Of a stretch of DNA of 64,000 nt, positions 24,764 through 34,532 are shown piece by piece (the first letter of the stretch is position 1; every line of letters starts with the position of its first letter). A program made the position numbers and the translations under genes. The stretch comes from Chryseobacterium indologenes (GTDB taxonomy: Bacteria; Bacteroidota; Bacteroidia; Flavobacteriales; Weeksellaceae), in NCBI RefSeq assembly GCF_018362995.1, contig NZ_CP074372.1, forward strand, positions 1,550,001 through 1,614,000, given 5' to 3'. The notes under the pieces are model-generated. The model made no database searches. It was not told the DNA's origin and saw only the letters and a program-made list of their open reading frames with translations.

Positions 24764-26191
24764 TTATACTTTAAGATCAGCTTCCAATCCTATTAAGTCT
24801 TTATTTTGATCTATAATCGGCTGTACTTCATTTTTGATGAATTCCTCCGTCTGAATCGGTGCGAAACCAATAAAGTTTTTAGGATCTAAAACTTCTTTCA
24901 GTTTTGATTTATCCAGTTTTAAAGAATCATCGTTTAAGATTCTCTCAATAAGGTCATTTTCTTTTCCTTCTTCTTTCACTTTCTTGGAAGCTTCCATAGA
25001 ATGAACTCTGATCACTTCGTGGATTTCCTGACGGTCACCACCAGCTTTTACTTCTTCCATGATAATGTATTCTGTCGCCATGAAAGGAAGTTCTTCCATA
25101 ATATGTTTGTTGATTCTGTTTGGATATACAACGATTCCGTTTAGAATGTTGTTCCAGATCAATAGAATAGCATCAACAGCTAAGAATGCCTGAGGAATGG
25201 TTAATCTCTTGTTCGCAGAGTCGTCCAATGTTCTTTCAAACCATTGTGTAGAAGCTACCATTGCAGAACTTGTTGTCAGAGACATTACATATTTTGCCAA
25301 TGCTCCGATTCTTTCGCTTCTCATCGGGTTACGTTTGTAAGCCATTGCAGATGAACCGATCTGGTTTTTCTCGAATGGTTCTTCAATTTCCTTAAGGTTT
25401 TGAAGTAAACGTAAATCGTTTGTGAATTTGTGTGCTGATTGTGCGATATTTCCTAATAAAGCAACTACTTTCGCGTCAATTTTTCTGTCGTAAGTCTGTC
25501 CGGAAACTCCGAAAACTTTATCGAAACCGAATTTTTTTGAAAGTTCTTTATCTAAGTGTTTTACTTTAGAATAATCTCCGTTGAAAAGTTCAAGGAAACT
25601 TGCAGCCGTTCCTGTAGTTCCTTTTACTCCTCTGAAACGAAGTGTTTCAAGGAAGAAATCCAATTCTTCGATGTCAAGAACCAAACTCTGTAACCAAAGT
25701 GTAGCTCTTTTTCCAACTGTTGTCAACTGAGCTGGCTGGAAGTGTGTGAATCCTAAAGTCGGAAGGTCTTTATACTGAATAGCAAAATCTGCTAAGTTTT
25801 TCATTACGTTAACCAACTTTTTCTTTAAGATTAAAAGTCCGTCACGAATCTGAATTAAGTCTGTATTGTCTCCTACAAAAGCCGAAGTAGCTCCCAGGTG
25901 AATAATTCCTTTTGCTGAAGGCGCCACATCACCGTAAGCGTGAACATGAGCCATTACATCATGACGGAATTTTTTCTCATACTCTGCTGCTTTCTCATAA
26001 TCGATGTTTTCAGCATTAGCTTTTAACTCAGCAATCTGCTCGTCTGTAATTTCAAGTCCAAGGTCTTTTTCGATTTCAGCAAGAGCTATCCAAAGCTTTC
26101 TCCAATTCTGGAATTTGTTATTATGTGAGAAGTTAAATAACATTTCTTCACTGGAGTAGCGCTCTTCCAATGGATTTTTGTAGGAATTCAT
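24764..26191 (-). CDS. purB: adenylosuccinate lyase
   Basis: 475 residues, cytoplasmic. It cleaves SAICAR and adenylosuccinate to release fumarate in purine synthesis. The fumarase/aspartase-superfamily signature is present as GSSAMAYKRNPMRSERI, with the catalytic-serine loop. TSAFVGDNTDLIQIRDGL and GFTHFQPAQLTTVGKRA are the other conserved regions. A -7 box at 26216-26223 lies 25 bases upstream of the ATG, and a hairpin follows the stop. purL lies 3.7 kb downstream on the same strand, separated by three non-purine genes. Confidence 0.97.
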   Translation of the reverse strand: MNSYKNPLEERYSSEEMLFNFSHNNKFQNWRKLWIALAEIEKDLGLEITDEQIAELKANAENIDYEKAAEYEKKFRHDVMAHVHAYGDVAPSAKGIIHLGATSAFVGDNTDLIQIRDGLLILKKKLVNVMKNLADFAIQYKDLPTLGFTHFQPAQLTTVGKRATLWLQSLVLDIEELDFFLETLRFRGVKGTTGTAASFLELFNGDYSKVKHLDKELSKKFGFDKVFGVSGQTYDRKIDAKVVALLGNIAQSAHKFTNDLRLLQNLKEIEEPFEKNQIGSSAMAYKRNPMRSERIGALAKYVMSLTTSSAMVASTQWFERTLDDSANKRLTIPQAFLAVDAILLIWNNILNGIVVYPNRINKHIMEELPFMATEYIIMEEVKAGGDRQEIHEVIRVHSMEASKKVKEEGKENDLIERILNDDSLKLDKSKLKEVLDPKNFIGFAPIQTEEFIKNEVQPIIDQNKDLIGLEADLKV

Positions 26192-26223: not shown

Positions 26224-26292
26224 CGGTTTTTCGGTGAGAGATAAAAATCCTGCTTTTATGATTTTTCAACCCTATTGCGAATCAGATAAAGA

Positions 26293-26500
26293 TTTCATTT
26301 ATACTTTTACCTTGAAGCAAAAGTATACAAAAGTTCAAGACGGGAATCATCCACTAAAAATTTAAATGTACTCCTAAGATTTCCAAACTCGCATGGATCA
26401 TCTGGTTCTGCTTCGGTTCTGAATAAGTCCCATGCTCAGACAGTAGAAATTTTTTAACGGATTACATTCAAAATTTCTTAACGCTACTGATTCCTAAGTC
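26293..26500 (-). repeat. 208-bp direct repeat, copy 1
   Basis: Aligns without gaps to 26765-26972, differing at roughly 15-20 positions. It begins with the palindromic segment TATACTTTTA-N8-CAAAAGTATA (one mismatch in the left arm) and ends CTACTGATTCCTAAGTC. It lies between purB and the small membrane-protein gene at 26573. Confidence 0.9.
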
Positions 26501-26572: not shown

Positions 26573-26770
26573 TTAGTTGCTGAATCTTTTCTTTTTAATA
26601 TATCTCAGACAAAAATATAAAACCATAGAAATTAAAATTGCAATTATGATCTTAAAGTATATGTGAAGAGAAATGTTATGACTGCTGGCTAATACCATTA
26701 ATAAATAAAAGACACAGATTAAAAAAGAAGTAAAACAAATAATTTGTAAAATATTTAATATAATTTTCAT
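26573..26770 (-). CDS. small two-helix membrane protein
   Basis: 65 residues made almost wholly of two hydrophobic segments (about 4-30 and 37-57) with a basic C-terminus (RYIKKKRFSN). No family is recognised. The start codon lies at the edge of repeat copy 2, whose -7 box (26790-26797) is 20 bases upstream, so the repeat supplies its promoter. Size and topology resemble small immunity or toxin-like membrane proteins, but that is only a resemblance; it could also be a fortuitous AT-rich ORF. Confidence 0.55.
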   Translation of the reverse strand: MKIILNILQIICFTSFLICVFYLLMVLASSHNISLHIYFKIIIAILISMVLYFCLRYIKKKRFSN

Positions 26771-26972
26771 TTATACTTTTGTCTTGAAACAAAAGTATAC
26801 AAAAATTCAAGACTGGAATCATCCGCTAAAAATTTAAATCTACTCCTAAAATTTCCAAACTCCCATGGATCATTTGATTCTGCTTCGGTTCTGAATAAGT
26901 CGCATGCTCAGACAGTGGAAATTTTTTAACGGATTACATTCAAATTTTCTTAACGCTACTGATTCCTAAGTC
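26765..26972 (-). repeat. 208-bp direct repeat, copy 2
   Basis: Gap-free match to 26293-26500. Here the leading palindrome TATACTTTTG-N8-CAAAAGTATA is perfect (10-bp arms), and each arm contains a TAnnTTTG -7 box, one per strand. The left edge overlaps the ATG of the 65-residue membrane protein. Confidence 0.92.
26790..26797 (-). promoter_or_regulatory. -7 promoter element carried by repeat copy 2
   Basis: The minus strand reads TACTTTTG, an exact TAnnTTTG match 19 bases before the small membrane-protein ATG. The mirror-image box on the plus strand is at 26773-26781. Confidence 0.45.
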
Positions 26973-27012: not shown

Positions 27013-27333
27013 CTAGCATTGAATTGTTATCATTATAAAAGCCAGAAAAGTTCCTAAAACAGTTATACCTATTCCCAATATATTCAATAATAACATTATG
27101 AATTTGTCACTTAAGTTAAAAAAAAATGTTGCAACTGCGGGAATGATAAAAATATTTGAAATCATTAGCAGGATAGAAAAATTTAATCCTCCTTGAAACG
27201 GAGAAAATCCTTTTTTAATAATGTATATATTGGTTAACAGTGTCAGTATATTTAAAATAATGATACTAACAGCTAGTATATAATTTATTCTTGATCGCAC
27301 AAAAGTTCTATAATTAGGACTACAAAATAACAT
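27013..27333 (-). CDS. small four-helix membrane protein
   Basis: 106 residues with about three to four hydrophobic segments (IILAVSIIILNILTLL region, FSILLMISNIFIIPAVATFFF, and the C-terminal LLLNILGIGITVLGTFLAFIM). No family is recognised. It lies between repeat copy 2 and a third repeat fragment that carries two -7 boxes 28 and 38 bases upstream. It shows no obvious similarity to the 65-residue neighbour. Function is unknown; a membrane immunity or accessory role for the nearby peptide is speculation. Confidence 0.6.
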   Translation of the reverse strand: MLFCSPNYRTFVRSRINYILAVSIIILNILTLLTNIYIIKKGFSPFQGGLNFSILLMISNIFIIPAVATFFFNLSDKFIMLLLNILGIGITVLGTFLAFIMITIQC

Positions 27334-27340
27334 TTTTTCA

Positions 27341-27390
27341 CTTATAGTTCTGCCTTAAAACAAAAGTATACAAAAGTAGTTCAAGTAGAT
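27341..27390 (-). repeat. third, partial copy of the 208-bp repeat
   Basis: Only the leading about 48 bases are present (CTTATAGTTCTGCCTTAAAA, then CAAAAGTATACAAAAG), with the left palindrome arm degraded. It lies directly upstream of the 106-residue membrane protein, in the same relative place as copy 2 to the 65-residue gene. Confidence 0.75.
27361..27378 (-). promoter_or_regulatory. two tandem -7 boxes upstream of the 106-residue membrane protein
   Basis: CAAAAGTA occurs at 27361-27368 and 27371-27378 (TACTTTTG on the minus strand), both exact TAnnTTTG matches within the partial repeat. Confidence 0.4.
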
Positions 27391-27405
27391 TAATGAAGAA
27401 GACAT

Positions 27406-27440
27406 AAAATAGGCTATCCCATTTCTAAGACAGCCTGTTT
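27406..27440 (-). terminator. terminator of the double-glycine peptide gene
   Basis: On the minus strand AAACAGGCT pairs with AGCCTATTTT (one G-T pair) 22 bases after the peptide stop codon, ending in a T-rich run. Confidence 0.6.
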
Positions 27441-27461
27441 ACATTATTTTCATGAATTAAA

Positions 27462-27602
27462 TTAATCGATAAGTCCGCAAGGTGATCCTACAGGGATACA
27501 TTTTTTTTCAAATGAGCACCAGAAGTATCCTGCAAGACACATTGGAATACCTCCCTGAACTGTTTTTAATTCTCTTTTTGAAAGTTTTCTTAGATTTTTC
27601 AT
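27462..27602 (-). CDS. double-glycine leader peptide, bacteriocin-like, four cysteines
   Basis: 46 residues, too short for most gene callers. The leader MKNLRKLSKRELKTVQGG (1-18) has the shape of a double-glycine export leader (basic start, KxLSxxELKxVxGG), as known for bacteriocin-like peptides in Flavobacteriia. The 28-residue core begins IPMCLAGYFWCSFEKKC and holds cysteines at 22, 29, 35 and 42 (spacing x6, x5, x6), consistent with two disulfides or another modification. A terminator follows the stop. A weak promoter (TATATTGG at 27667-27674) lies upstream. No C39-peptidase transporter or modification enzyme is seen in the window, so processing and export must come from elsewhere. Confidence 0.85.
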   Translation of the reverse strand: MKNLRKLSKRELKTVQGGIPMCLAGYFWCSFEKKCIPVGSPCGLID

Positions 27603-27790
27603 AGTAACGTTTTTGATTTTTCTCCTACTCTATATGCTTTTCGGATTACGCTTTAATTTGGTAGATCCAATATACAGATTTTTTGCATACAAAAACATAA
27701 CCTGTTCATTTTATATAATTTACAAAGACAATTGTTTATTAACTTTTGATGATCATTATATACATCAATAGACTTAAGACAAAATAAATC

Positions 27791-27816
27791 AAAACCTCCG
27801 CTGTTGCAGAGGTTTT
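27791..27816 (-). terminator. terminator of the RHS operon
   Basis: AAAACCTC and GAGGTTTT form an 8-bp stem with a 10-base loop, extended by near-complementary A/T-rich flanks. It lies about 46 bases after the last gene of the operon. Confidence 0.75.
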
Positions 27817-27828
27817 AATTTATTTGTA

Positions 27829-27851
27829 GGCACGAGCGAGACGCTCGTGCC
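27829..27851. repeat. GC-rich perfect palindrome
   Basis: GGCACGAGCG and CGCTCGTGCC form a perfect 10-bp stem with loop AGA. It is much more GC-rich than its surroundings and stands between the RHS lipoprotein stop and the terminator. It resembles REP-like intergenic palindromes. Confidence 0.7.
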
Positions 27852-27862
27852 AGCGGGGGATG

Positions 27863-28258
27863 TTATTTTTTGAAAATTTTCTTGTAAAAAATATTTTCAT
27901 CAGCATTTACTTCCATAATAATATCATCTTTTTGTTCATAGACAGGAAAAGAAGTAATCATCAAAAACTTTTTAGCATCCTCATTTGATAATGGCTCTTC
28001 TAATTCATTATCCTCATTATTATAAAATTTCAATAGTGTAATTCTATTGTTTTCTAAAGTCCACTGACCTTCCTCTTCGTATTTTAGTTGCAAATTTTTA
28101 TCATAAATCTTATGTATAAAAATATGATTTTTAATGATTAGCGTATCAATTACATATTCTCCTTTAAAAGAATAGCTCCCTAATATTTTTTTTTTGTTTA
28201 TAGTACAGCTCATCATAATTATTAAGCTGAATATAGAAAATACTGCTATTTTTTTCAT
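27863..28258 (-). CDS. lipoprotein overlapping the RHS gene, possible partner or immunity protein
   Basis: 131 residues. The N-terminus MKKIAVFSIFSLIIMMSCT has a lipobox with Cys at about 18. The rest has a lipocalin-like pattern of strands (GSYSFKGEYVIDTLIIKNH, EEGQWTLENNRITLLKF), similar to small flavobacterial lipoproteins of unknown function. Its ATG overlaps the stop of the RHS gene (ATGA), so the two are translationally coupled. Genes directly downstream of RHS tips are often immunity proteins; here that is inference only. Confidence 0.8.
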   Translation of the reverse strand: MKKIAVFSIFSLIIMMSCTINKKKILGSYSFKGEYVIDTLIIKNHIFIHKIYDKNLQLKYEEEGQWTLENNRITLLKFYNNEDNELEEPLSNEDAKKFLMITSFPVYEQKDDIIMEVNADENIFYKKIFKK

Positions 28259-31200
28259 TTCATCTCATTTTTCTCAACCCATAATAAATACGTTTGTTTA
28301 GTCGTGCTTTGCGGAACACCTACACCATTTGTTCTAGGAATATTTCTTGACTCATCTTTATTAAATGGATTAAGAGAATAAGATGATACAGATTTAGAAT
28401 CAAAAGCCATTATAACAACTTTATTTCCAACAGGATAAAAGCTAAAATTAGTTTTACCCATAAATTGTCCTTGCATATTAGTGTTTTCTAGACCTACACC
28501 CAGAAGTCCAAACATTCCTGAAAAAGAAGTTTTTTCGTTCATAGATGTTCCCTTAAAATAATCTACAGCAGTTTCATACATATCTGTTTCCATAAGTTCT
28601 TTTACTGCTGCATTTTCTTTTCCAACAAGTAGACTGTTTTCAGGTCCCCCACCACTAAGAAACTCATCAAATAAATTTGCCCAATTAGTAGTATTCATTC
28701 TTCGTGTATAACCTTTTAAATTTTTTGATGAATTCATCCATTGGTCATCGCCAGTTGCTCTATCAACTATTCTAGTTCTTCTATTAAATTTAGCACCACC
28801 CCCTACATAATGATAAAAGTCTATTTCATCTCCTCCTAAATCGCTAATCTGTCTAGTTTTACCTGTTTTTAAATCAACTTCGTATTCATTAGGAGGAGTA
28901 AAGTTTCTTCTAACTTCTTTTGAAATTTCACTGTCTTGTTGAATTGAAGCTTGGTTTCTAATAACTTCCTCACTCTGTCTTCCATCCGGATCAACAAATC
29001 TTATAGGATTATTATAAGCGTAAGTATATGGAGACCATCGACGAGAGTTCTCCGCCAACGGATCTACAACGCCCCAACGTCCAATGTCTGCCATATAGAA
29101 CCTTGCTCCATAATCATACATGCCTGTCTCCTGCAATTCCTTGCCATTGTACTTATATTGATACGAGGGATTTCCTGTCAATACATTATATCCTTCATGT
29201 TTCAATCCTAACGGGTAATAATTACTCTCTTCAATAATCTCTAATCCTGCTCCATTCTTAGCATAACTTAATCTTGTATTTCCCAGATGGTCCGTATAAT
29301 TATACACATACTTTCCGGTTTCAACATTAAAATATCCTTCTGCTGTCGGGAAGAACTTTAATACTGAATTCATATACTGGAAGCCATCCAGATAATCAGT
29401 GGTTTCTGTTCCGAAAACCTTTCTTACCTTCACTCCGTCTGCTCTGTAAATATAATCAGTTGCTTTGGAGTTTTGGGTAATCTTACCCGGTAAATTTAGA
29501 TAATTATATTGGATGGAGGAAATTCCTTTATCCAATTGAGTGGTCATATTTCCGTTGAGATCATAAGTAATGGTGCTTCCTGTACTTCCTGATGCTAATG
29601 GATATCCACTGATGGCATTTCCGGTTCCGATTTCTTTAAGGTAAGATAATTTATTACTTTGTTCCCCATTTTCATAATGGTATTCAAGATTGTCCATTAC
29701 TTCGGGTGCGGTATATCCCGGGAGTTGTCTTCCTCTTCTTAAAAGCGTTTTTATGTTTCCGTTAAGATCGTAAGTCAGCTGCTCATGATATTCTCCTCTT
29801 TCCAAATTCATAGCATCCCAGAAACGTCCTTCCTTAAGACGGTTAAGAGCATCATATTCATAAGAATAATTTCTCAGCACCGCGTCATTTTGGGTAATCC
29901 ATGACATTTGGGAAATGTTTCCATTATATCTTGCTGAACCTGAAAACTGGTTGTTGGGCTTATTATAACGCAGTTCGTACGCAAAAAGTTTATTCTGCAA
30001 ATTGGCAGGATCGTTAATTTTTGTCATCCAGCCCCGGATATTATATTGGTAAGCAATGGTCTGTAATGGAGAGACCGCAGCTATTCCTCCTACTTTTTTA
30101 GATTCCAGCTGGGAAAGTTCATTGTATTTATTCTGAGACAGGTATTCAACAGGATTGCTGTCGATCTGATGGGTATGAGTCAGAAGCCTGTTCTGGGAAT
30201 CATAGGTAAACTTTTCTACAATGATTTTTTCAGGATCTGTACCAAACCTTCTATGATAAGTATTAGTCTGAAGGATAACCCCGGCAAAGTCAAGCTTATT
30301 ATTAATTACAGTATAGCCTCCAAGATAATTACGACTTCTTGATCCGATATTTCTTCCCTTGGTATCATACCAGATAAAATTTCTTGTCCAATTGTCATCT
30401 TCTATATTCTTTACATAAGAAGCTGTAAGAAATCCTTTAGTGGTTTGTGCATTAGCAGGATTATCTGTAAGAAGAGGTTGGGCAAAGACATTGGTTACCG
30501 CAGGGGAGCCTGTCGGATAAGTATCATAATAATTAACCGTTAACAGCGTAGTGACAGAACCAGGATAACTGGCTGAACCATTATCATAATATACTCCTAC
30601 CCCGCTGTTGGTAAATCCTACGGTAGAGGACCTGGTTACATTATTACTCCCCTTAGCATCTGCTGATATTTGCTCTGCAGCTCTTCCTGCTGTACCATAC
30701 ACCTGGGTACTGGTATATAGGCCTGTATATGCTGTTCTTCCGAATTGGTCATACTTGGTAAAAAGCCACTGTTTTAATGCTCCCATGACAGCATCCTGGG
30801 TCATGATCAGCCTGTCCTGTTTGTCATACACCATATATTCCCAGCCTTTTCCGGGAAGTTTCTTTTCTACCAGACGGTTCCTTCCGTCATATTTATACTG
30901 GTAACATAAATCACTAAGTACGGTATTGGGATCTGCTTCTACGGAAGCTTTGGGAGGAATCACAAAAGCCAGCTGGTTATAATCATTGTAAACATAATAG
31001 GTATCTGCACTTTCTGAAGCACTGATTACTTTTCTGACCAATACCACCTGCCCCTGGCCGTTTTTAAACTCAATGGTTGAGTTGCCGTCTTCATCGGTGA
31101 CTGTATTTTTATACAGCTGTCCTACTGCATAGGAACCGGATGGGATGAGTTGGGAAGTAAAAGTGGTATAGGTAAAAGTGGCTGTATATTTTTTAACCTC

Positions 31201-31680
31201 GCCATCTGAATTGGCATCATACCCAAATTTTATAGGCTTGTTATCCCAGGCATTTCCCACTTGTTTCTGCTCCAGAATTCTGTCTAAAGGTGAGTTTTCC
31301 AAAACCTTTTCTGAATAGATCTTTTCATTGCCATAGGTGTTAGGATAAACACCCAAAGGCCCTGAATAATAGTTCCCGTTACTTGTGGAAAGTTGGGGAA
31401 CAGGAAGATAGTCCTTAACCTGTCTTCCGAAAGGGTCATATTCAATATGGGTCACAACATCTTTTCCCAAAGGTGAAGCTTGTAAGTTGATAATTTGCTT
31501 AGGTCTTCCCAATCCGTCAAAATACTGTACCGTTTCTAAGGATTTGGTAGCAGCTGTTCCATTATAATCTAAATATGTTTTGGTCTGAATATAATTTTCA
31601 TTGCTTGAAATCGTGGAAAGCTGGGCATAGGCTATATTAGATAAGAGCAAGGCTCCTATTGGTATTATAAGTTTTTTCAT
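28255..31680 (-). CDS. RHS repeat-associated core protein with variable C-terminus
   Basis: 1141 residues with a signal peptide (ending SNIAYAQ). The N-terminal part (about 28-115) is DUF6443-like (VQYFDGLGRPKQIINLQASP). YD/RHS repeats fill the middle (YEYDALNRLKEG, YDLNGNIKTLLRRG, YDLNGNMTTQLDKG). The RHS core YNGKELQETGMYDYGARFY is followed by NPIRFVDPDGR, with DPDGR at residues 897-901. After this lies a distinct 240-residue tip. It has no nuclease or ADP-ribosyl signature that I recognise, but is rich in D/E and contains GMFGLLGVGLENTNMQGQF. Secretion is probably by Sec and then T9SS or surface anchoring. It is part of a four-gene operon. Confidence 0.9.
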   Translation of the reverse strand: MKKLIIPIGALLLSNIAYAQLSTISSNENYIQTKTYLDYNGTAATKSLETVQYFDGLGRPKQIINLQASPLGKDVVTHIEYDPFGRQVKDYLPVPQLSTSNGNYYSGPLGVYPNTYGNEKIYSEKVLENSPLDRILEQKQVGNAWDNKPIKFGYDANSDGEVKKYTATFTYTTFTSQLIPSGSYAVGQLYKNTVTDEDGNSTIEFKNGQGQVVLVRKVISASESADTYYVYNDYNQLAFVIPPKASVEADPNTVLSDLCYQYKYDGRNRLVEKKLPGKGWEYMVYDKQDRLIMTQDAVMGALKQWLFTKYDQFGRTAYTGLYTSTQVYGTAGRAAEQISADAKGSNNVTRSSTVGFTNSGVGVYYDNGSASYPGSVTTLLTVNYYDTYPTGSPAVTNVFAQPLLTDNPANAQTTKGFLTASYVKNIEDDNWTRNFIWYDTKGRNIGSRSRNYLGGYTVINNKLDFAGVILQTNTYHRRFGTDPEKIIVEKFTYDSQNRLLTHTHQIDSNPVEYLSQNKYNELSQLESKKVGGIAAVSPLQTIAYQYNIRGWMTKINDPANLQNKLFAYELRYNKPNNQFSGSARYNGNISQMSWITQNDAVLRNYSYEYDALNRLKEGRFWDAMNLERGEYHEQLTYDLNGNIKTLLRRGRQLPGYTAPEVMDNLEYHYENGEQSNKLSYLKEIGTGNAISGYPLASGSTGSTITYDLNGNMTTQLDKGISSIQYNYLNLPGKITQNSKATDYIYRADGVKVRKVFGTETTDYLDGFQYMNSVLKFFPTAEGYFNVETGKYVYNYTDHLGNTRLSYAKNGAGLEIIEESNYYPLGLKHEGYNVLTGNPSYQYKYNGKELQETGMYDYGARFYMADIGRWGVVDPLAENSRRWSPYTYAYNNPIRFVDPDGRQSEEVIRNQASIQQDSEISKEVRRNFTPPNEYEVDLKTGKTRQISDLGGDEIDFYHYVGGGAKFNRRTRIVDRATGDDQWMNSSKNLKGYTRRMNTTNWANLFDEFLSGGGPENSLLVGKENAAVKELMETDMYETAVDYFKGTSMNEKTSFSGMFGLLGVGLENTNMQGQFMGKTNFSFYPVGNKVVIMAFDSKSVSSYSLNPFNKDESRNIPRTNGVGVPQSTTKQTYLLWVEKNEMK

Positions 31681-31685
31681 CAGTT

Positions 31686-34532
31686 TTAGTTTTTATAATT
31701 GTATTTCATCTCCTTCAACACTTTGCCATTCACATCAATCACTTTTTCAAGCCTGTTAGCCGAATCATAAACATAGCTTTCTCTAATTCCGGATGGTGAA
31801 GTGATGCTTCTTACTCCTACTAAAGGATCATAGGTATAAGTAGTGATCTGATAACCGGATAATGAAGTATTAGCTCTGAATGAACTCAATGCTGATAAAA
31901 ACGCAGTCTCATCATTACCAGAAGCTGCTAGAGCATCTGTATCGGAGGCATTAACAATAGAATCAATTAAGGACTGCTGGATATCTGTTAATTTAGCTCC
32001 TTCTATCTTAGCAATCGGCTGAGTCTGATTATACCCCCAGATAATTACGGTAGAAATACCATCTTTCGTGGTATACTGCTGTAAGTTTCCTTTTAAATCA
32101 TATTGGTCATAAGTAACTTCTGTAGAAGTAACATTTTGTAGATCTGTAGATAGGACAGAACTTGGGAGTAAGTTTAATGGGTTATCGTATTTTGTTTCGG
32201 TTTTTGAAAGTATTTTTGTGACAGTTCCAATAGTTTGTGTTGTTTCGGTTTCTAAAGGGATACCAATCATATTGGCTGTAATTAATTTTTGGTTATTTTT
32301 ATCTAATGCATATTTATATTTTACTTCTTGGATATTTCCATCAAATGAAGTCACTTTTTCTAAGTTAGGTCTGTAATTATTCGTGTTATTAAAGACCGCT
32401 TTCTTTGTTTCAGTAATACCTGAATTAAAATAATTACGTGATATCGAAGTATGGTCTTTTATCCAAACTGTTTTTATATAGAAATTTCCTACTACACCAC
32501 TGGGAACGGGTAAATATTCAGGAGCATCATATTCCATAAAAGTATAATCAAACGCTTCGTCTGATACTTTTCCATTTAAAGCATTATAAATTTCTTTTTT
32601 AGTAAGCAGCCCACTACGCATAATACTGAAATTAGGCCAAAAAGGGAGAGAATTAAGTTGCGTAAGGGTGTAATCGTAAGGTGTTTTGAAATAATATTTT
32701 GTATAACCATCAGTTCCTCCTGAGATTTTTACATTTTGATATAATATGACAGGGTTAAGGGCTGTTAAACCATCCTCAGCGTTACCTCCTGCTACATAGA
32801 GACCACTAGATTCTGTGGGATTATCAAACTTATTATAATTATATTCCTCTACTTTTGCAGGAATAGTTCCTGTTTGGATAGAAGATGATACTTCATTATA
32901 ATATTTTATGGTTGCTATTCTCGCTTGTCCGGTTGAAGAAGGCTTACGAACAATCGTTTCAACTGGCTCTCCCAGATGTTTTGCTTCAAAATAAACTTCA
33001 CCAAAAGGTATGGTAATACCTGGTTCTGCACTCAACAAAGAAACATAATAATCCCCGGCATCTGTATTATAAAAAGGAAAAAGCTGTCTGGTAGGGTAGT
33101 CCGGATCAGGTTCTACAGCAGGTCCTAATGATATCGGTACAGGTTGATAAGAACTACCTACTTTTTTATAAAATGCCAGAGACCAATAATTATTGGCAAG
33201 TTGCCCCGCATTAATATCGATCGCAACATAATAAGGTTTATTAGGAAATGGAGTGCCACCATTGTTGACTGGTACAGTAAAAAATTTTTTTTTGGCAATA
33301 CTATTAATTGTTGTGAATGAAACATTTCCTAAATTTTCTTCCGGTACAATTATTTTAGGTTCTTCTATATAATTAAAAGGAATAAAATCATATGCATATT
33401 TAATTGTTCCACCAGAAGGTAACTGAACTTCTCCTAAAGTTGTTGGAATAACAAGTTCAGGATTCGGATCTGTATTAGGCTCCTGAATAAAAGTAATACC
33501 TCCGTATTTAAATTTCGTTTTTTCTATTTCGTTATTATTGACATCAACTTTAGCAAAAGACTCAAGGCCTGTCTGAAAAGTATATTTAGAAATAAATTGA
33601 TCCGTAACTGTTTTTAATGAAGCGCTTTTTAACCTGAATTTATCTGCTTTTATATTTCCCAAATCTGTTTCATTTATCTTATCATATTCAAGTTTAATGA
33701 GTCCTTGACTTTTCACTTCAATATCTGTAAGTTTATATTCTTCAGATTCAACTACATCAGGTTCTCCAATAGGATGGGTAACATCCTTTAAGTAATTATA
33801 AGCAGCCAGAATATTTCCGCTTTCATCCTCAACAGACGTCAGAAAGAATGCACTGCGATAATTTTGATTACCATACAATATTCCTCCATTAGGATATTGA
33901 TGTACCATTACTCTTGCTCTAGAAAGTCCGTAAATTTCGAATTTATACTTTATACCTTTGTCTGTGATAATGGTAAAAGAATCTACAACCAGAGTAGAGG
34001 TATTACTTACTGATCGCTGATAATTAATTGTTGAAGAGGTTGAGGTAAGTTTTACTAATTTAAATGTATTGTTCGAAGTATCTCTTATAAACCTGAATTT
34101 TCCTGATTCTCCAGGAATAGTATAATTATAAACATCATCAAAATAATTCTTTAAATAACTATCCCCAAGTGTAAAGTGCTCATCAAACTCACCTATTATT
34201 TCTCTGGAAATTACTCCCTGGCCAAATAAAGACCAACCTCGTCCTAAATCACCAATCCACTCATCAGTTGCATTTACCGGATGGTAGCTGATTCCCATAT
34301 CAATACCAAAGCTTTTACTGTTTGAAGGAACACTGAATAAGTTGTAGGATATATCAGGTATTCCTGTTTGTATCGAAACTGGGACATTATTATAGGTTGC
34401 AAGGGAAGAAATAGTAGGAACCGGTCGTGTTACACCTGTATTAGGAGCTGAATTTGAAGCTTGTCCATAGTACATTAAGCTGATGAATAGCAAACCTAAA
34501 ACTATGAATTTTTTTAGTATATCTTTTTTCAT
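31686..34532 (-). CDS. secreted YD/RHS-type repeat protein
   Basis: 948 residues with a signal peptide (MKKDILKKFIVLGLLFISLMYYGQ). The first about 750 residues form a large beta-rich region (VSIQTGIPDISYNLFSVP; GISYHPVNATDEWIGDLGRG) similar to N-terminal portions of SpvB/RHS-like polymorphic proteins. YD-type repeats occupy the C-terminal 200 residues (YDQYDLKGNLQQYTTKDG; TYTYDPLVGVRSITSPSG; YVYDSANRLEKVIDVNG). It ends 5 bases before the RHS core gene starts and lacks a core or tip of its own, so it likely forms a shell or scaffold with the downstream protein. That cooperation is inference. Confidence 0.85.
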   Translation of the reverse strand: MKKDILKKFIVLGLLFISLMYYGQASNSAPNTGVTRPVPTISSLATYNNVPVSIQTGIPDISYNLFSVPSNSKSFGIDMGISYHPVNATDEWIGDLGRGWSLFGQGVISREIIGEFDEHFTLGDSYLKNYFDDVYNYTIPGESGKFRFIRDTSNNTFKLVKLTSTSSTINYQRSVSNTSTLVVDSFTIITDKGIKYKFEIYGLSRARVMVHQYPNGGILYGNQNYRSAFFLTSVEDESGNILAAYNYLKDVTHPIGEPDVVESEEYKLTDIEVKSQGLIKLEYDKINETDLGNIKADKFRLKSASLKTVTDQFISKYTFQTGLESFAKVDVNNNEIEKTKFKYGGITFIQEPNTDPNPELVIPTTLGEVQLPSGGTIKYAYDFIPFNYIEEPKIIVPEENLGNVSFTTINSIAKKKFFTVPVNNGGTPFPNKPYYVAIDINAGQLANNYWSLAFYKKVGSSYQPVPISLGPAVEPDPDYPTRQLFPFYNTDAGDYYVSLLSAEPGITIPFGEVYFEAKHLGEPVETIVRKPSSTGQARIATIKYYNEVSSSIQTGTIPAKVEEYNYNKFDNPTESSGLYVAGGNAEDGLTALNPVILYQNVKISGGTDGYTKYYFKTPYDYTLTQLNSLPFWPNFSIMRSGLLTKKEIYNALNGKVSDEAFDYTFMEYDAPEYLPVPSGVVGNFYIKTVWIKDHTSISRNYFNSGITETKKAVFNNTNNYRPNLEKVTSFDGNIQEVKYKYALDKNNQKLITANMIGIPLETETTQTIGTVTKILSKTETKYDNPLNLLPSSVLSTDLQNVTSTEVTYDQYDLKGNLQQYTTKDGISTVIIWGYNQTQPIAKIEGAKLTDIQQSLIDSIVNASDTDALAASGNDETAFLSALSSFRANTSLSGYQITTYTYDPLVGVRSITSPSGIRESYVYDSANRLEKVIDVNGKVLKEMKYNYKN

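Follow-up and report, generated by a model that had tools for sequence, protein, structure and literature searches.

Class II bacteriocins and microcins are exported by C39-peptidase ABC transporters. The peptide described here, which is encoded in a 64,000-nucleotide window of the Chryseobacterium indologenes genome, resembles them in its double-glycine leader, in the C39 exporter with HlyD adaptor of its genome and in its likely disulfides, but it is unlike them in that its gene lies far from the exporter, has many paralogues per genome and is without a constant immunity neighbour. Among named families, NF047798 (leader_Chryseo, 'bacteriocin-like protein') shares with it the genus, the leader and the short Cys-rich form; the model covers the 18-residue leader only and is silent on exporter, core and regulation. 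A second family, NF047792 (CCPGW family putative bacteriocin), has a similar leader and size. In addition, the chryseoviridin and ATP-grasp loci of Chryseobacterium have been described in PMC8939145, a table of which gives the C39 double-glycine peptidase/transporter as the first-listed family associated with ATP-grasp enzymes. Rfam lists the DUF805b RNA (RF02914) as cis-regulatory, and the link of this element to double-glycine peptides was found in the present analysis. In the open-licence literature searched, no paper named DUF805b, none joined DUF805 with a riboswitch and none joined any two of bacteriocin-like protein, Chryseobacterium and GG leader; among the matches listed, no title or abstract start concerned the peptide of this window.

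The window spans positions 1,550,001-1,614,000 of a single-contig genome of 5.0 Mb. A sequence-only reading had drawn attention to an open reading frame of 46 codons, giving no strand, and such a frame is indeed present: it runs on the minus strand from an ATG at 27602 down to a stop ending at 27462, and on the plus strand the same interval carries stop codons throughout, the frame of the ORF being closed. Residues 1-18 (27549..27602, minus strand; MKNLRKLSKRELKTVQGG) form the double-glycine leader, which matches NCBIfam NF047798 with 37.0 bits against a curated cut-off of 23.5, and residues 19-46 (27465..27548, minus strand; IPMCLAGYFWCSFEKKCIPVGSPCGLID) form the core, with cysteines at 22, 29, 35 and 42 as had been noted. 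The terminator that had been claimed 3' of the gene corresponds to a terminator-like hairpin of 11 pairs on the minus strand (27411..27436, read from 27436) with the tail ATTTT; over 27350-27900, 2 terminator-like sites were found on both strands together, versus a mean of 0.2 in shuffles. Upstream, the partly conserved TATATTGG (27667..27674, minus strand), seen in the alignment of upstream regions, is what we take to be a possible -7 box of a Bacteroidetes-type promoter. The description of the peptide as overlooked does not hold up given the match to the curated leader model and the several relatives already called bacteriocin or bacteriocin-like protein; judged by its sequence, the peptide belongs to an already named Chryseobacterium family. 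What is newer is the naming of a likely exporter far off in the chromosome and the DUF805b RNA that is common to other such peptide genes. Membership does not extend to NF047792 as a whole protein (30.2 bits against a cut-off of 80), and the core is without the letters CCPGW.

The small gene is real and encodes a precursor: 53 of 148 genus genomes match it strongly, its four cysteines are invariant, and dN/dS is about 0.1 in leader and core alike. The 148 Chryseobacterium genomes were drawn from a larger group; matches at E<=0.001 occur in 121 of them, many via the leader alone, and strong matches (E<=5e-12) in 53, the genome of the window being included in both counts. Loci were taken from 49 other genomes, which represent 48 of the 52 other strong matches plus the more distant L122, and the remaining four strong matches were fetched later (L131-L134). 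Over residues 1-43 of 46 distinct orthologous reading frames, dN/dS was 0.129 (leader 0.142, core 0.119) at a mean synonymous distance of about 0.8, near saturation; two distant members and one damaged copy (L121, L122, L123) were left out of this set, and the value for the 42 reading frames outside the exporter operon was 0.111. An alignment of 27 sequences shows no variation at the four cysteines, Gly25, Tyr26 and Trp28; in a wider alignment of 35 sequences this still holds except for Gly25, which is nearly invariant. Some copies, about 4 of the 53, seem to be damaged: G067 has an internal stop, G062 and G124 are each matched in two overlapping frames, and G112 is partial; sequencing error is possible for G062, as this genome is only 75% complete and has stops in its VKOR gene too. 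A protein search against 5.8 billion sequences returned 7 relatives by single sequence and 18 by profile, and those with an organism name come from Chryseobacterium. Annotated longer starts of 71-72 aa (P0002 and P0003) are probably wrong, and would read through the DUF805b RNA. The expectation that leader and cysteines are conserved while the rest varies was borne out between paralogues within a genome and failed among orthologues, where the remaining core positions are for the most part conserved as well, and this conserved core argues against a fast-diversifying bacteriocin.

In line with the earlier suggestion of a structured, putatively disulfide-bonded peptide, whose structured four-cysteine core the sequence supports, AlphaFold2 (35 sequences) predicted a beta-hairpin in the core at residues 26-29 and 34-37, although the whole model is weak (mean pLDDT 69; 84 for residues 21-30, 88 for residues 31-40, 51-52 for the leader; pTM 0.41). 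A profile of the 27 orthologues matched, among PDB sequences, the LDL-receptor class A module of relaxin receptor 2 over residues 20-42 (E=7.9e-4) and two entries of relaxin receptor 1 (0.014 and 0.045), which would make the peptide a relative of the first half of this animal module. We regard such a relationship as very improbable: the single-sequence search reached only E=0.31 against the module, a control profile built from other Cys-rich operon peptides matched Dickkopf-4 at E=0.014, Foldseek gave no match at E<=0.001 among 114, and the module is absent from the four Pfam families matched by the 27 members at E<=10, in a scan in which HMMER discards most weak matches at its filter stage. 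We judged the resemblance a chance one on the basis of the single-sequence search, the Pfam scan and the control profile.

The peptide had been proposed to be an orphan precursor, with no processing transporter nearby and its machinery elsewhere in the genome, and this fits what was found. No C39 match over the cut-off lies within the 64-kb window (1.550-1.614 Mb). In the whole genome PF03412 (C39) matches 4 places at E<=10, 2 of them over the cut-off. The first is a protein of 731 aa with C39, ABC membrane and ATPase domains, encoded at 4.093-4.095 Mb, 2.5 Mb from the window, and it is the single full C39-peptidase ABC exporter of the genome. The second is a stand-alone protein of 186 aa (L056, 6813-7373, plus strand) with no ABC domain match and, by eye, a lipoprotein-like N-terminus, which could cut leaders too, as a second leader peptidase. 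The exporter gene stands in a row on one strand, presumably one operon, that encodes a 503-aa VKOR-thioredoxin fusion (VKOR and Thioredoxin_4 domains), the exporter, a six-Cys double-glycine peptide, an HlyD adaptor (HlyD_3) and a four-Cys double-glycine peptide.

In 4 of the 49 loci (L109-L112) a relative of the window's peptide, 63-64% identical to it, forms part of the equivalent operon, where it lies next to other double-glycine peptides and between VKOR gene and exporter gene; the exporters there are 90-91% and the VKOR proteins 71-72% identical to those of the present genome. One of these operons bears on the idea that the peptide is the precursor of a graspetide or of another enzyme-modified product. 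Graspetides are expected to have pairs of Thr/Ser and Glu/Asp, and the invariant core residues of the peptide are Cys, Gly, Tyr and Trp. Although the L110 exporter operon follows a grasp-with-spasm locus (SPASM 259.9 bits against 175; ATP-grasp 221.2 against 230, just under) and L109 and L111 look similar to it by eye, none was seen by eye in L112, and no ATP-grasp or SPASM match was obtained among the 9 neighbour proteins in the window or the 8 proteins of L055, so that we consider enzymatic modification of this kind improbable. Set beside the chryseoviridin and ATP-grasp loci of PMC8939145, the common trait is that the L110 locus precedes an operon holding a relative of the peptide, and the differences are that no modifying enzyme was found beside the window's gene and that the core is a different one.

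The VKOR fusion served as marker for a comparison across the genus. It has matches at E<=0.001 in 139 of the 148 genomes, among them G052 with only a distant one (2.6e-34), and it was counted as present at E<=1e-90, which leaves 138 genomes with and 10 without it. NF047798 leaders (E<=0.001) were missing in 10 of the 10 genomes without a close VKOR protein versus 2 of the 138 with one (G028 and G089), a co-occurrence with Fisher p=6.5e-14 over 148 related genomes whose kinship the test ignores; the exception G028 holds a double-glycine peptide below the threshold (L277), and the count is affected by this threshold. In two genomes, G142 and G052, an exporter with 90% identity to the present one occurs without a close VKOR protein and without leader matches, and thus exporter and leaders can part. 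The leaders themselves occur in 136 of the 148 genomes at E<=0.001, with up to 48 per genome (at most 56 candidates were scored in each). A search for other precursors with the same leader, as had been proposed, gave 53 places in the present genome at E<=10, 30 of them over the cut-off. Of 51 places read, namely 50 of the 53 (the three weakest omitted) and one from another search, 46 parsed as double-glycine peptides, 24 with six cysteines behind the leader, 15 with four and the rest with 2, 3, 5 or 8; the 46 leave out the window's gene, the places 2289526 and 3134412 and two not starting with MK. These paralogues have similar leaders and differing cores.

Some species thus have relatives of the same gene within the operon; in most, they lie close to the adenylosuccinate lyase gene purB (38 of the 49 loci). 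In the window, purB (Pfam ADSL_C and Lyase_1) lies at 24764..26191 on the minus strand and is a conserved neighbour of the orthologues; it is not part of the mechanism. The other 7 loci comprise five 3.1-kb stretches, at least two of which are near purB in longer pieces (L135, L130), and the two distant members L121 and L122; in a further named set (L135-L175), which overlaps the same genomes, purB was found in 37 of 41. In the window, the interval separating the peptide gene from purB contains a 215-nt direct repeat (26286-26500 and 26758-26972, 92% identical), a 42-nt part of which recurs at 27336-27377. RHS-repeat proteins are encoded beside the peptide gene at 28255-34532 (minus strand), and RHS matches near the peptide were seen in 8 of the 49 loci and 13 of the 41 named ones. 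At the purB locus of G024 (L129, 4947-14488), a lanthipeptide-like cluster stands directly upstream of the peptide, with, as labelled by eye, a large LanB-like protein, LanC-like proteins, four near-identical double-glycine precursors and its own C39 exporter-like protein. This cluster and the RHS genes in other species suggest that the purB locus is an insertion hotspot for conflict genes.

The neighbourhood also bears on whether the peptide is a class II bacteriocin with an immunity protein next door. The candidate for the latter is a 106-aa protein without Pfam match, hydrophobic and membrane-like by eye, encoded on the same strand (27013-27333, minus strand) 128 nt downstream of the peptide gene. 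Its presence, the nearby RHS-repeat genes, the name of the NF047798 family and a weak match of the peptide to PF10439 (Bacteriocin_IIc; 16.7 bits, below the gathering score of 27.1), a family that matches 23 of the 27 orthologues at E<=10 with a best E of 0.00054, speak for a bacteriocin, and a C39 exporter is found in the genome. The neighbour, however, was matched by tblastn in only 12 of the 49 loci (two copies in L087). These 12 all belong to the 29 short stretches, which extend no more than 1.5 kb beyond the gene, and in several of them the ATG frame of the neighbour is short. A search for ORFs of >=50 residues within 1.5 kb downstream in 48 of the 49 loci gave no constant immunity partner; 22 of the 48 have no closed ATG frame of this size on the same strand over that distance. 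Since the core is, in addition, under purifying and not diversifying selection, we hold a bacteriocin with this immunity protein to be possible but rather unlikely.

A structured RNA, which lies outside the coordinates covered by the sequence-only reading and was missed by it, was found in the 5' UTR. The DUF805b RNA (RF02914), a pseudoknot, occupies 27622..27654 on the minus strand, 19 nt before the start codon, scores 36.9 bits against a gathering score of 35.6, and is the only Rfam family over its gathering score in the window; score and position before the start codon agree with the Rfam family. When the upstream regions of the relatives are aligned, a common block stands out some 20 nt ahead of the start codon, and a relaxed pattern located it in the 90 nt upstream of the gene in 42 of 48 relatives. 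Three of the four operon copies (L110, L111 and L112) are among these 42; the fourth, L109, lacks the block, as do the distant members L121 and L122, and L118, L126 and L127 have it in altered form. Covariation supports both stems of the element, namely stem 1 of the Rfam consensus and an interleaved second stem put forward in this analysis: in the 43 of 45 elements that could be parsed, 263 of 301 pair cells were paired, against an average of 208.5 over 2,000 shuffles, none of which exceeded 227; the elements are related and not independent. Support is weak for the outermost pair of stem 1 (21 of 43), and in the window's copy one of the four stem 1 pairs is non-standard.

With up to 3 mismatches the block occurs at 6 places in the present genome, all before double-glycine peptide genes, and a backward control gave 0. 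The Rfam model itself has 17 matches at E<=0.1, 12 of them over the gathering score, and 16 were counted, the last (E=0.067) being omitted. All 16 lie 17 to 25 nt before an ATG; 9 precede double-glycine peptides, one of which is the peptide right behind the exporter, and 7 precede genes without such a leader (L221, L222, L224, L230, L233, L235, L236), which encode trypsin-like peptidase, caspase-domain, tail-collar, PixA and DUF308 proteins and two proteins without Pfam match (E<=0.001). The association with double-glycine peptides in this genome has a Fisher p=5.7e-15 (46 double-glycine versus 4,450 other genes, numbers that are partly assumed). In other genomes the share differs: by our own reading, 11 of 15 elements in G085 and 2 of 14 in G122 stand before double-glycine peptides, and in G122 the relative of the window's peptide is preceded by the best-scoring element of that genome, while in five genomes chosen for lack of NF047798 matches (G011, G056, G078, G028, G104) 1 of 14 elements precedes a weak double-glycine peptide and four precede small secreted-looking proteins. 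Over all distinct element instances, 74 of 87 stand before double-glycine peptides, in loci mostly chosen for such peptides, so that this is no measure of enrichment. Thus, the DUF805b RNA is broader than the double-glycine class; the proportion of elements that stand before such peptides differs from genome to genome, with enrichment in the present one. Secreted-looking proteins of 82-93 aa with cysteines were also seen behind DUF805b in other genomes (L242, L243, L244, L251, L254, L255, L269-L272).

The conserved frame, the NF047798 leader, the single exporter, the relatives within its operon, the co-occurrence with VKOR and the covarying DUF805b RNA before the start codon are best explained by an exported, disulfide-bonded peptide that is matured in trans by the distant exporter and gated by the RNA, and we consider this reading probable. 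The leader would direct the precursor to the distant C39 exporter, whose C39 domain would cut after the GG at residue 18, the HlyD adaptor would carry the 28-residue core across the periplasm, and the VKOR-thioredoxin fusion would install two disulfides. The DUF805b RNA may switch translation on some signal, together with that of eight other scattered peptide genes. Once mature, the peptide would most likely work extracellularly, either on other bacteria or as a signal. A role as an extracellular signal or in self-recognition within the genus, exerted through a conserved receptor and not as a weapon, would agree with a core conserved across species, with the conserved place near purB and with an RNA element common to other peptide genes; the patchy distribution, with the strong matches confined to about a third of the genomes and a few of these copies damaged-looking, speaks against it, and we hold this specific role, too, to be possible but rather unlikely. 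A conserved target or signal role is as likely as a classical bacteriocin, since there is no constant immunity gene and the core does not diversify among orthologues.

Beyond the exported, RNA-gated peptide itself, the locus might be one piece of a scattered arsenal, in which up to about 48 dispersed double-glycine peptides per genome share one VKOR-coupled C39 exporter and DUF805b co-switches a subset of them with other proteins, the caspase-domain, trypsin-like, PixA and tail-collar proteins being added to the switched set and DUF805b being the sensor of a shared signal; we take this reading as a whole to be a serious possibility that falls somewhat short of an even chance. Each genome has tens of orphan precursors whose leader bears a curated name, yet the literature searched describes neither processing nor purpose for them. 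With an exporter and a likely disulfide-forming partner named, these orphan precursors become testable by the removal of one gene. In addition, the DUF805b RNA, for which the literature searched names no ligand, gains a concrete set of target genes, and its link to the peptides offers a handle on the signal that turns them on.
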